Shown: positions 29,932 through 51,480 of the stretch, piece by piece
Position numbering within the stretch: position 1 is the first letter of the stretch
How the letters are laid out: every line of letters begins with the position of its first letter
Assembly: GCA_019639075.1 (NCBI GenBank)
Contig: JAHBSO010000009.1
Location: 1-64,000, forward strand
Direction of reading: 5' to 3'
Source: Actinomycetota bacterium
GTDB lineage: Bacteria; Actinomycetota; Acidimicrobiia; Acidimicrobiales; Iamiaceae
Length of the DNA: 64,000 nt
Notes under the pieces: model-generated
Told to the model about the DNA's origin: nothing
Databases searched by the model: none
What the model saw: only the letters and a program-made list of their open reading frames with translations
Made by a program: the position numbers and the translations under genes

Positions 29932-32490
29932 TCAGCTGGCGACGGTCCCCGTGGTGCCGACGGCCGGGAGGCACCCCTCGCGCACGATCGCGTCGACGTC
30001 GTCGGCGGTGACCGCGGCGCTGAAGAGGAAGCCCTGTGCAGCGTGGCACCCGAGGTTCTCCAGCACCTGCCGCTGCTCGTCGGTCTCGACGCCCTCCGCG
30101 ATGGTCTCGAACTTCAGGTTCTGGGCCAGGACCATGGCCGCGGAGACGATCGCCAGGTCGTGCGACGACGGGTTGCTCACCCCGGCGACGAAGGATGCGT
30201 CGATCTTCAGGACGTCGGCGGCGGAGAAGCGACGGAGGTAGTCGAGGGTGGCGAACCCGGTGCCGAAGTCGTCGATGGCCAGGCGGACGCCCAGCTCGGT
30301 GAACCGGGCCAGCTGGTGGGCCAGCTCGGCGTCGGAGATCAGGTCGGTCTCGGTCACCTCGAGGCAGAAGCGGTGCGGCGCGACGCCGTGCTGGTCGAGC
30401 GTCCCGGCCACGAACTCGACGAGGTCGGCGTCGGTCAGCTGGCGGGCGGACAGGTTGGCGGCGACCTCGAGGGTCGGCCAGCGGGCCGCGTCGGCGACGG
30501 CCTGCTGGATCACCCATCGGCCCAGCGGGAGGATGAGCCCGGTGTCGGTGGCGATCGGCACGAACGCGCTCGGCTCGACCAGGCCGTGACCCGGTCGCCG
30601 CCACCGCAGCAGCGCCTCGACCCCGATCATGTGCTCGTCCTTCAGGCGCACCACCGGCTGGTAGTGCAGCTCCATCTCGCCGCTGACGATCGCGTCGCGC
30701 AGCGCGCTCTCCACCGCGAGCCGGTCGATGGCGCGGTCCCGGAGCCGCTGCTCGAACAGCGCCGCCTGGTTCCGGCCCTGCTGCTTGGCCTCGTACATGG
30801 CCAGGTCGGCGTCCTGGAGCATGGCGGTGGGCTCGGCCGGTCCCCGCACGTGGACGACGCCGATGCTGGCGGTGACGACGACCCGGCCGCCCGGCAGGTC
30901 GACCGGGCGCTGCAGCGCGGACGACAGGCGCGACGAGATGATCGCCACCTCGTCGACGTCGCCGAGGTCCGGACACACCACGACGAACTCGTCGCCGCCC
31001 ACGCGGGCCACGAGGTCGACGCCCCGGACGGCCCGCCGGAAGCGGCCGGCCACCTCCTGGAGCAGTTGGTCGCCGGCGTCGTGGCCGAGGCTGTCGTTGA
31101 TGAGCTTGAAGCGGTCGAGGTCGACGAACAGCACGCCGCCCTGGCTCCCGTCGTGGCCGAACAGCTCCCGGAGGCGGGCGACGAGGAAGCGACGGTTGGG
31201 CAGGCCCGTCAGCTCGTCGTGCAGCGCACCCCGGGCGAGCCGGGCGTGGAGGTCGTGGCGCTCGACCGCGATCGACGCCAGGTCGGCCACCAGGCCGAGG
31301 AAGTCGCGATCCTCGGGCGACAGCGGGGCGTCGCTCTCGCTCAGCACCGCGACCCGACCGGTGACCGACCGGGTCGACGAGACCAGGTCCTGGAACCAGA
31401 CCGAGCGGTAGCGGCCCGCGGACGCCGAACGCACGAGGAGGTCGGTGGCCTCGTTGCGGCGGAACCCGCTCGCGGTCGGACCGGTGGCCCGGCCCGCGCC
31501 CGGGCGGGTCACGCCGAGCTGGCCCAGCTGGTCGAGCAGCTCGGGGGCGACACCGACCGCGTGCGACGCGAAGTCCTCATCGGGATCGAAGTAGCCGACG
31601 ACGATCCGGCGGCCGTCGAGGTGGCGCAGCGCGAACTGCTGGATCTCGTCGAGGGCCTCGCGCACCGGCAGACCGCGGGCGATCCGGTCGAGGAGGAGCG
31701 TCTGCTCGGTGAGCAGCTCGGCCGCGGAATCCTCCTCGACGAGGTCGCGGCAGGTGAGGACGACGGATCGGTCCGAACCCGGCGAGTCGAGCGTCCGCCG
31801 CACCCGCAGCGGGCACCAGCTGCCGTCGGAACGCTGGAAGCGGATGACCGGTCGGCGGCCGGCCGCGGTGCCGAGGACGCGGTCGAGCGACTGGCCGTCA
31901 CCCGTCGGGGCCTGGAGGTCGTCGGGGTGGACGATCTCGGGGATCTCCTTGCCGACGAGCTCGTCGGGCCGGAACCCGAGGATCGTGCGGACCGACGGAC
32001 CGACGTAGGCGATCCGCCCGACGTGGTCGCCGGCGATGATCAGGTCGGTCGCCCCCTGGAGGAGCGTGGTGGCCCAGGCCTCGCTGACCCGCCGCGCCTC
32101 GGCCTCGGACTCGCTGGTCTCGAGCACCCGGCCCACGGCCACGATCGCGTTGAGGGCCGGGTCGCGCAGCGCGTTCGTCACCGTGAACACCACCCGCGTC
32201 GGTTCGCCGTTGATGACGAGGTCGATGTCGAGGGGTCGTGGGTAGGGACCGTCCGTGTCGAGGATCCTCGCGAACACCTCGGCGTGCAGCGGATGGTTGG
32301 CACGGTGGACGACGAGGTCGAAGATCGACCGGTGGAGCAGCTCGTCCTCGTCCATCCCGACCCACGCGGGGAGGGCGTCGACGCTGACGATGACCCCCGA
32401 GCCCGACACGGACAGGACGAGGTCGGGGAACGCGTCGAGGACGGCGCTCGGGATGCGACGGCGCGCCGGTCCGGTGGGTCCGGCGTTCAC
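29932..32490 (-). CDS. PAS-PAS-GAF-GGDEF-EAL c-di-GMP turnover protein
   Basis: 852 aa. Two PAS-like sensor regions (about 15-130 and 135-260; FRPDELVGKEIPEIVHPDD marks the second) and a GAF-like region precede the GGDEF domain, whose active loop is intact (ARVGGDEFVVV, with the metal Asp in FVDLDRFK). The EAL domain follows with GVEALLRW, ANLSARQL, EVTETDLI and IDDFGTGF, all expected catalytic residues. Both cyclase and phosphodiesterase activity are possible. No membrane helix. The GTG at 32490 overlaps the hemL stop (GTGA), linking it to haem synthesis genes. Confidence 0.93.
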   Translation of the reverse strand: MNAGPTGPARRRIPSAVLDAFPDLVLSVSGSGVIVSVDALPAWVGMDEDELLHRSIFDLVVHRANHPLHAEVFARILDTDGPYPRPLDIDLVINGEPTRVVFTVTNALRDPALNAIVAVGRVLETSESEAEARRVSEAWATTLLQGATDLIIAGDHVGRIAYVGPSVRTILGFRPDELVGKEIPEIVHPDDLQAPTGDGQSLDRVLGTAAGRRPVIRFQRSDGSWCPLRVRRTLDSPGSDRSVVLTCRDLVEEDSAAELLTEQTLLLDRIARGLPVREALDEIQQFALRHLDGRRIVVGYFDPDEDFASHAVGVAPELLDQLGQLGVTRPGAGRATGPTASGFRRNEATDLLVRSASAGRYRSVWFQDLVSSTRSVTGRVAVLSESDAPLSPEDRDFLGLVADLASIAVERHDLHARLARGALHDELTGLPNRRFLVARLRELFGHDGSQGGVLFVDLDRFKLINDSLGHDAGDQLLQEVAGRFRRAVRGVDLVARVGGDEFVVVCPDLGDVDEVAIISSRLSSALQRPVDLPGGRVVVTASIGVVHVRGPAEPTAMLQDADLAMYEAKQQGRNQAALFEQRLRDRAIDRLAVESALRDAIVSGEMELHYQPVVRLKDEHMIGVEALLRWRRPGHGLVEPSAFVPIATDTGLILPLGRWVIQQAVADAARWPTLEVAANLSARQLTDADLVEFVAGTLDQHGVAPHRFCLEVTETDLISDAELAHQLARFTELGVRLAIDDFGTGFATLDYLRRFSAADVLKIDASFVAGVSNPSSHDLAIVSAAMVLAQNLKFETIAEGVETDEQRQVLENLGCHAAQGFLFSAAVTADDVDAIVREGCLPAVGTTGTVAS

Positions 32491-49178: not shown

Positions 49179-50393
49179 TCAGGCGGCGCAGTCGACCGGC
49201 TGCCGGGTGGCCAGGTCGCCGTAGATCCGGCGCAGGCGGGCGGCGGCGGTCGACCAGGTGTAGCGGGCGGCGCGGGCGGACGCACTCGCGCCCATCTCGG
49301 CGGCCCGGACCGGATCGGCCAGCAGCGTGGTGACGGCCTCGGCGAACGCCGCGGGGTCGCGCTCGTCGACCAGGAGCCCGGTGCGCCCGTGTTCGACCAG
49401 CGTGCGCAGGCCGCCGACCGCAGCGGCGACGACCGGCGTGCCGCAGGCTGCGGCCTCCAGGGCCACGAGGCCGAACGACTCGGACCGGCTCGGCACCACG
49501 ACCACGTCGGCGGCGCGGTACCAGGTCGACAGCAGGTGGTGGGGCTGGGGTGCGACCCAGGTGATGCGCTCGGCGACGCCCAGGGCCTCGGCCAGCGCCC
49601 GGACCCGGGCCAGCTCGGCGTCACCCTCTTCGCCGCTCGGCCCGCCGACGACCACGAGCCGGGCCCGCTGGTCGGCCAGCTCGGCCAGTGCCCCCACGGC
49701 GACGTCGAGGCCCTTCAGCGGCTGGATCCGCCCGACGAACAGCAGCAGCGGCACCCGCTCCGGGAGCCCGACGGCCCGACGGGCCCCGGCACGGTCGCCG
49801 GGCGCGAAGAAGGCGTGCTGGACCCCGGGCGGAACGATCTCGATGCGCTCCCGGGACGCGCCGTACAGGCGGACGAGCTGGGCCCGCTCCTCGACGGAGT
49901 TGGCGAGGATCACGTCGGAGCAGCCGATGACCTCGGCCTCGGCCTCGATCCGACGGTCGGGCTCGGGGTCGCCGGTCTCGGCCTTGACCCGGGCGAGGGT
50001 GTGGAAGGTCGACACCAGCGGCAGGTCGAGGCGGTGCTTCACCCGGTGCCCGACGACCCCGGACAACCAGTAGTTGGCGTGGAGCACGTCGACCGGTGCG
50101 GCGAGCAGACGGCGCTCGAGCTCGGCGGTGAACTCGTCGACGACGTCCGGCAGCGCCTCCTTCGGGAGGTCGACCGCACCGGCGTCGAGGTGCACGACCC
50201 GGAACCCGGGTTCGACCGCGACCTCGTCGGGCAGGTCGGCGCCGTCGCGCCGCACGTAGACGGTGGTGCGCACCCCCGACTGGGCCAGCGACGCCGCGAG
50301 CTCGCGCACGTAGACGTTCATGCCGCCGCTGTCGCCGATGCCGGGCTGCACCAGCGGCGACGAGTGCAGGGAGAGAACGGCGAGGTCCACCAC
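49179..50393 (-). CDS. mshA: D-inositol-3-phosphate glycosyltransferase
   Basis: 404-aa GT4 enzyme, first step of mycothiol synthesis (GlcNAc transfer to inositol-3-phosphate). VLSLHSSPLVQPGIGDSGGMN (donor loop region), VSTFHTLARVK, GRIQPLKGLDVAVGAL and the ESFGLVALEAAACGTPVVA nucleotide site match MshA. The GTG at 50393 (or the adjacent GTG at 50390) is preceded by TGAGGA; the frame continues upstream through the XRE gene only as Arg-rich sequence. Confidence 0.92.
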   Translation of the reverse strand: MVDLAVLSLHSSPLVQPGIGDSGGMNVYVRELAASLAQSGVRTTVYVRRDGADLPDEVAVEPGFRVVHLDAGAVDLPKEALPDVVDEFTAELERRLLAAPVDVLHANYWLSGVVGHRVKHRLDLPLVSTFHTLARVKAETGDPEPDRRIEAEAEVIGCSDVILANSVEERAQLVRLYGASRERIEIVPPGVQHAFFAPGDRAGARRAVGLPERVPLLLFVGRIQPLKGLDVAVGALAELADQRARLVVVGGPSGEEGDAELARVRALAEALGVAERITWVAPQPHHLLSTWYRAADVVVVPSRSESFGLVALEAAACGTPVVAAAVGGLRTLVEHGRTGLLVDERDPAAFAEAVTTLLADPVRAAEMGASASARAARYTWSTAAARLRRIYGDLATRQPVDCAA

Positions 50394-50398
50394 GATCC

Positions 50399-50866
50399 TC
50401 AGGAACGCTCGGCGTTCGCTCCGGATTCCCGTTCGGCGGCCTGGTCGTCGGCCTCGGCCCCGTCCTCCTCGGCCCCCGCCCCGGCCTCGCCGGTGGCGTC
50501 GGGCCCGAACCCGGCAGCCCGCCGTTCGGCCTGGAAGGACTCGTAGATCTGGACGAGGGTGCGCTTCTGCTCCTCGTTGAGCCACGGATCGCGACGGATC
50601 TCGGTGGTCAGGTCGGCCGCCCCGGGTTCGGCGTCGAGGATCCCCGCCCGCACGTAGAGCGTCTCGCTGCTGATCTCGAGCGCCCGGGCGATCTGCTGGA
50701 GGATCTCCGCCGACGGCTTCCGCAGGCCACGCTCGATCTGGCTCAGGTACGGGTTGGAGATGCCGGCCATCTCCGAGAGCTTGCGCAGGGACAGGTGACC
50801 GACACGGCGCTGCTCGCGGATGAACTCACCCAGGTCCCTCCAACGGGTCTCGAGCTCGGACGACAT
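50399..50866 (-). CDS. XRE-family transcriptional regulator
   Basis: 155 aa. N-terminal HTH_3 domain (FIREQRRVGHLSLRKLSEMAGISNPYLSQIERG quoted by its core LRKLSEMAG and SNPYLSQIERG). A helical middle (NEEQKRTLVQIYESFQAERR) and an acidic low-complexity tail follow. The mycobacterial homologue lies near heparin-binding haemagglutinin; here it is 5 bases upstream of mshA, so they are co-transcribed. A TACGGT box lies 7 bases before the ATG. Confidence 0.88.
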   Translation of the reverse strand: MSSELETRWRDLGEFIREQRRVGHLSLRKLSEMAGISNPYLSQIERGLRKPSAEILQQIARALEISSETLYVRAGILDAEPGAADLTTEIRRDPWLNEEQKRTLVQIYESFQAERRAAGFGPDATGEAGAGAEEDGAEADDQAAERESGANAERS

Positions 50867-50925: not shown

Positions 50926-51480
50926 TCACCCCTCGGGCCGGTCGTCGCCGATCAGCAGGTCGTCGACGTTGGCCTCGCCGTCCCGGTAGCGACGGGTCAG
51001 CTCGGCCTCGACGGCGTCGATCCGGTCGAACATGGCCCGACGGGTGGCCGACACCTCGACCTCGAGGGCGCCGAGGTCGGTCGCGACCCGCTCCAGTTCG
51101 ACGTCGCCGACCTCGGACGCGTCGTCGAGCGACACGCGGCGGGTGACGGCCGTGAACCGGTCGACCAGCTCACCGGTCAGCTCGCCCGGCTCCACGGTGG
51201 CGGTGAGCCGCCCCTGCCCGGGCCCCCGGACCCGGTCGGCCAGGATCGACGGGAGCCGGTCCACGAGGCTGGCGATGTCGTCGGGGGAGCCGCCGTCACG
51301 CCGTCGGGTCAGCTCGCCGCCCACGATGTCGTGGTGGCCCTGGATCAGACGACGCAGGTAGGAGAGCTTGGTCTCGACCTCGCGGCACGTGGCCCGCTTC
51401 GCGCGCAGCTCGGGGACCGACAGCGCGTCGAGGCCGTCGAGGTACCCCTCGGCCAGGATCTCCTGCAACTCGCGGTCCAC
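50926..51480 (-). CDS. RsiG-like c-di-GMP-binding anti-sigma factor homologue
   Basis: 184 aa from GTG 51480 (GGGAGG 4-9 bases upstream). The first helical part contains ETKLSYLRRLIQGHHD, an exact match to the c-di-GMP-binding signature E-x3-S-x2-R-x3-Q-x3-D of RsiG (E36, S40, R43, Q47, D51). A second, diverged copy is EVEVSATRRAMFDRID (E140, S144, R147, F151 instead of Q, D155). RsiG proteins form a helical hairpin that holds the sigma factor WhiG in a c-di-GMP-dependent way. No sigma gene is in the window. Confidence 0.8.
   Translation of the reverse strand: MDRELQEILAEGYLDGLDALSVPELRAKRATCREVETKLSYLRRLIQGHHDIVGGELTRRRDGGSPDDIASLVDRLPSILADRVRGPGQGRLTATVEPGELTGELVDRFTAVTRRVSLDDASEVGDVELERVATDLGALEVEVSATRRAMFDRIDAVEAELTRRYRDGEANVDDLLIGDDRPEG

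Follow-up and report, generated by a model that had tools for sequence, protein, structure and literature searches.

A twin-motif RsiG with Gln and Phe at its stacking positions in Acidimicrobiales and its predicted control of Tad pili through WhiG

The rsiG locus and its product

The window (the whole 64,000-nucleotide stretch of DNA analysed here) corresponds to contig C28 of a 2.74-Mb genome that is 79% complete, and it encodes on its reverse strand an RsiG-type protein with two c-di-GMP motifs (Table 1). The GTG start codon at 51480 is credible, as the same alignment column holds Met in a genus-mate (L020). Most loci compared across the order have the HTH_3 gene beside rsiG and likewise keep the arrangement rsiG, HTH gene, MshA-like gene, YbjN gene, proC; such conservation of gene order argues for vertical inheritance of rsiG. 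The GGDEF domain is matched 13 times in the genome, with one of these matches falling in a GGDEF gene of the same window (30085-31239, (-) strand; G000:C28:30766-31227).

Table 1. Features of the rsiG locus and of the predicted RsiG-WhiG system. Positions without a prefix are those of the window; those prefixed G000 lie on other contigs of the same genome.
Feature	Position	Strand	Basis or remark
rsiG, twin-motif RsiG, predicted c-di-GMP-dependent anti-sigma factor	50926..51480	(-)	184 aa, GTG start
Motif 1, residues 36-51 (E36-S40-R43-Q47-D51), ETKLSYLRRLIQGHHD	51328..51375	(-)	exact E-x3-S-x2-R-x3-Q-x3-D
Motif 2, residues 140-155 (E140-S144-R147-F151-D155), EVEVSATRRAMFDRID	51016..51063	(-)	E-x3-S-x2-R-x3-F-x3-D
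XRE-type regulator gene (HTH_3), conserved rsiG neighbour	50399..50866	(-)	Pfam HTH_3, 50 bits
Family-4 glycosyltransferase (MshA-like), conserved neighbour	49179..50390	(-)	kept next to rsiG locus
whiG, FliA/WhiG-type sigma, predicted partner of RsiG	G000:C6:17812-18480		FliA_WhiG model (TIGR02479), 266 bits, cut-off 189.6
Putative FliA/WhiG-type promoter before tadA, TCAA-N15-GCCGATAG	G000:C4:64034-64060 (L100:14035-14061)		flagellar/WhiG consensus scan

The RsiG family and its occurrence in Acidimicrobiales are already known from published work, in which RsiG-WhiG is described as the one sigma/anti-sigma pair that c-di-GMP is known to target (PMC8325347). The window protein matches the Pfam RsiG profile PF22802 in two stretches (88.2 bits, E 2.9e-25, cut-off 27), S. 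venezuelae RsiG (6pfj) over almost its full length at E 1e-17, with F151 facing the Gln of that protein, and R. radiotolerans RsiG at E 6e-6; given these three matches, the resemblance of the motifs is not due to chance. NCBIfam holds no model for it. The AlphaFold2 (AF2) model (pLDDT 82, pTM 0.75) places the two motifs on separate long helices, one at residues 22-62 and the other at 126-166. Its best PDB matches are by far the S. venezuelae RsiG chains (Foldseek E 3e-6), with 6pfv_B giving Z 11.9 and an rmsd of 4.5 over 154 residues, against a Z of at most 7.9 for unrelated rows; as modelled, the protein forms an antiparallel coiled coil like that of 6PFV. The initial annotation had described an RsiG with one exact motif and a second carrying Phe in place of Gln, and the translation of 50926-51480(-), the profile and homologue matches, and a predicted fold nearest 6pfv all bear this out.

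All eight c-di-GMP-contact residues (E, S, R and D of each motif) are present in the window RsiG. With both helices within 184 aa, it is not of the single-motif homodimer type seen in Rubrobacter, and with Phe at the motif-2 stacking position we have not filed it in the canonical Q/H-type twin-motif subset, as in Streptomyces. By homology and gene order, the window protein is an RsiG, a vertically inherited Acidimicrobiales orthologue of the twin-motif form.

Across the phylum, the RsiG profile is matched in 248 of 396 genomes sampled, a wider occurrence than published. Many families (loci L204-L222 and others) carry what appears to be a short single-motif RsiG, with one profile match and frames often of about 85-160 aa. 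Two genomes of the phylum hold five (G159) and six (G205) profile matches; a second RsiG copy has been reported in one species only (PMC8325347).

Histidine and phenylalanine in the second motif

Residue F151 is encoded by TTC (51030-51028), and Streptomyces has Gln at the equivalent position. Over 77 Acidimicrobiales homologues, S, R and D of motif 1 are invariant, with E kept in 74 and Q in 75, and E, S and R of motif 2 are invariant, with D kept in 75. The same lack of variation in motif-1 S and R and motif-2 E, S and R was seen in 30 homologues from the order and then in 96 non-redundant sequences. Position 151 is His in 43 of the 77 homologues and Phe in the other 34, that is, two kinds of residue, whereas the x positions of the same motif accept 6 to 16.

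A tree of 102 rows, computed with the motif-2 stacking column masked and with Streptomyces rows (Gln/Gln) as outgroup, places the window RsiG inside the clade formed by the 77 rows (SH-aLRT 99). Within this twin-motif clade, Phe at 151 needs at least 4 changes (parsimony 12), from which it follows that His and Phe interchange at this position, and the Q/F pair (motif 1/motif 2) is fixed in a 12-row clade around the window RsiG. On this alignment and tree, F151 represents a conserved aromatic substitution, gained several times within a clade whose members already had both motifs, and the His/Phe variant of motif 2 is common to the whole order, not a decaying intermediate.

The initial annotation had instead called motif 2 decayed and the protein a possible evolutionary intermediate, standing between the homodimer with one motif per subunit and the monomer with two, which one residue off the published consensus might suggest, but the residue diversity at 151 and the tree lead us to reject it as highly improbable: E, S, R and D are intact or nearly so, only His or Phe occurs at 151 in the 77 orthologues, a Phe gained after both motifs were in place provides no bridge between the two forms, and the second helix is wholly absent from single-motif RsiGs (PMC8325347). 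In three distant RsiG homologues (L184, L186 and L192), Arg replaces Glu in motif 1 and the stacking position of motif 2 holds Ile; these are better candidates for true motif decay than the window RsiG.

The motif Gln stacks on guanine, as can His, which often occupies this position of motif 1 in other RsiGs (PMC8325347), so it follows naturally that Phe would retain just the stacking. Among structures, we found none that carries Phe at the equivalent of residue 151; going by sequence, F151 most likely still stacks on guanine, with hydrogen bonding lost. Since Phe cannot hydrogen-bond as Gln and His can, the substitution might go further and weaken or remove the second site, leaving one c-di-GMP or an asymmetric lower-affinity pocket and a switch tuned to higher c-di-GMP, and the fixed Q/F pair in the 12-row clade would fit such tuning. 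We think this improbable, as motif 2 retains the R and D that read guanine, which would be unexpected if no ligand were bound there, and as His and Phe swap repeatedly with the other motif residues unchanged. The aromatic motif-2 form would widen the tolerance of the c-di-GMP motif, so that genuine receptors would be missed by searches that admit only Gln or His.

The WhiG partner and predicted targets

A WhiG/FliA sigma gene, which the initial annotation expected elsewhere in the genome, is present on contig C6 (Table 1). The alignment of its product with WhiG of 6pfj has E 7.5e-87, and the gene adjoins xerC-, M23-peptidase- and rpsB-like genes (read from translations), surroundings that we take to be those of whiG in Streptomyces; a score above the cut-off together with this neighbourhood places it in TIGR02479. 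The residues of S. venezuelae WhiG that touch c-di-GMP, K57, G61 and R62 (PMC8325347), correspond to K34, G38 and R39 here, with Lys-Gly-Arg all retained, and the closest paralogue, which is the sigma scoring next best in this genome, reads R-F-Q in place of KGR. K-x3-G-R is found in 26 of 31 WhiG orthologues, and the remaining 5 have KSR or KTR (G to S/T).

The two genes also occur together. Across 99 genomes, comprising the window's own and 98 relatives and with WhiG counted at about 245 bits or more, 57 have both rsiG and whiG, 30 have neither, 9 have rsiG only and 3 have whiG only (Fisher p 4e-14); among genomes at least 90% complete, there are 48 with both, 21 with neither and 4 discordant. 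In some discordant genomes (G005, G094, G084 and G047), whiG is matched in part, probably because a contig ends within the gene, and in another (G054) a diverged RsiG was detected with the Pfam model.

Regarding output, the initial annotation had tentatively favored motility over sporulation. No flagellar FlhA was found in the genome (79% complete), making flagellar motility unlikely, and what stands of the proposal is a non-sporulation output, with the Tad pilus operon as the best predicted target. Tad-type genes lie on contigs C4 and C28, and a type IV pilus cluster with PilB-, PilC- and pilin-like genes and a second ATPase (read from translations) lies at G000:C24 about 162900-178500 (L097, L098). 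At the latter, no WhiG-like promoter above 9/12 was found. The site before tadA is the only match of at least 11/12 in 385 kb of the genome's own DNA, both strands counted. TAAA-N14-16-GCCGATA without mismatch has zero matches in the genome, and TAAA-N15-GCCGATAA with at most two mismatches has ten, tadA among them, versus three in the control.

Using a consensus that was partly learned and refined from the tadA sites themselves, so that all sites are similarity matches and putative, we find TYWA-N14-16-GCCGATAR directly upstream of tadA in 10 of 12 genus genomes, the window's own included (10 of the 10 readable), and 27 times over the genus as a whole, versus 10 for the reversed pattern. The site before tadA takes the form TCAA or TTTA, N15, GCCGATAG across the genus. 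Nine aligned tadA sites share CT[CT][AT]A, a 15-nt spacing and all eight bases of GCCGATAG, with most flanking and spacer columns varying, and a GTG or ATG start codon always follows within 6 to 7 nt. Read from this alignment, the invariant element amid varying flanks is a regulatory footprint and implies a leaderless tadA transcript, which we regard as probable. G018, in which rsiG but no whiG was detected (78% complete), retains GCCGATAG before tadA. The site is missing before tadA in several relatives from other genera that have rsiG, making tadA a genus-level target at best.

Other matches precede genes for c-di-GMP enzymes and a DivIVA-domain protein. Three exact genus matches (G004, G007 and G010) precede a GGDEF-EAL-type gene. 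The gene most similar to it in the window's own genome (65% identity, with GGDEF and EAL domains by Pfam) has TCAA-N15-GCCGATGG at C22:19622-19648, one mismatch away. Six same-family genomes without rsiG and whiG (L240, L242 and L245-L248) have a near-miss, (A/G)CCGATG, before tadA, which may be a remnant or another promoter type, and as GCCGATGG resembles this form, its GATG may likewise be either. A second GGDEF gene (C23:93892-94344) has TCAA-N15-GCCGATTG just upstream, and a DivIVA-domain gene follows a match in two genomes, the window's own (C23:205490-205517) and one other. The GGDEF-EAL target is of interest because the GGDEF domain of the Streptomyces phosphodiesterase RmdB binds WhiG and keeps RsiG off (PMC13232838). 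Together, these sites predict that the switch gates Tad pili, which are adhesive surface pili, and c-di-GMP enzymes.

RsiG and WhiG might nevertheless interact while the main WhiG targets are not Tad pili and a different sigma factor recognises the tadA element, an idea that draws on the related (A/G)CCGATG element kept by the whiG-less relatives. However, in combination with a TCAA-type -35 at N15, GCCGATAG is similar to the FliA/WhiG consensus of PMC8325347, and whiG is present in all ten genus genomes with the exact tadA site, such that we see reading by another sigma factor as a real possibility but an unlikely one.

A predicted c-di-GMP switch and known RsiG-WhiG systems

The predicted control of tadA by WhiG would belong to a switch of the following kind. 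In the window RsiG monomer, the two long helices would form an antiparallel coiled coil to which a c-di-GMP dimer binds. There E and S of the motifs would contact ribose and R and D would recognise guanine, while Q47 and F151 would stack on the guanine bases; in sister lineages, His would take the role of F151. Loaded with c-di-GMP, RsiG would sequester the WhiG-type sigma, and a drop in c-di-GMP would free WhiG to transcribe from TCAA-N15-GCCGATAG promoters, its targets being the tadA pilus operon, c-di-GMP enzymes (a feedback) and a DivIVA-like gene. This joint reading, in which twin-motif RsiG and c-di-GMP hold WhiG and freed WhiG drives these three targets, is in our judgement probable. 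It is the best explanation of homology, residue conservation, predicted fold, partner presence, co-occurrence and promoter conservation, from which we infer ligand binding, Phe stacking, anti-sigma activity by sequestration, and the direction and targets of control. The more specific claim, that in this genus RsiG with an asymmetric Gln/Phe pocket and WhiG govern Tad pili, GGDEF-EAL enzymes and the DivIVA-like protein from WhiG-type promoters (leaderless at tadA), with high c-di-GMP turning Tad pili off, has about an even chance of being right.

We found neither the motif-2 His/Phe state nor a link to Tad pili in the relevant passages of PMC8325347 or in the literature searched, in which no paper mentions both WhiG and Tad pili. 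The conserved tadA promoter offers a directly testable third output of the RsiG-WhiG switch, and suggests that surface pili may be the recurring role of this switch in unicellular actinobacteria, with sporulation as another use.

Among known systems, the closest by taxonomy are RsiGs of the same order, reported in 3 of 4 Acidimicrobiales species and counted as twin-motif (PMC8325347); the main-text passages concerned are silent on their motif-2 His/Phe state. The twin-motif monomer of S. venezuelae (PDB 6PFJ/6PFV) is like the window RsiG in full-length homology, in both motif helices, in the coiled-coil fold (predicted here), in E, S, R and D of both motifs, and in a WhiG partner with the same contact residues. 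It differs in having Gln rather than Phe in motif 2, and its output is sporulation, whereas Tad pili and c-di-GMP enzymes are predicted here. The single-motif homodimer of R. radiotolerans (PDB 7LQ2-7LQ4) shares the motif 1 helix and a WhiG partner but has one motif helix per chain, whereas the window RsiG has both in one chain. In Rubrobacter the same logic applies, with type IV pili and c-di-GMP enzyme genes under RsiG-WhiG (PMC8325347), so that pilus and c-di-GMP enzyme genes are predicted targets in both systems, type IV pili in R. radiotolerans and Tad pili here.
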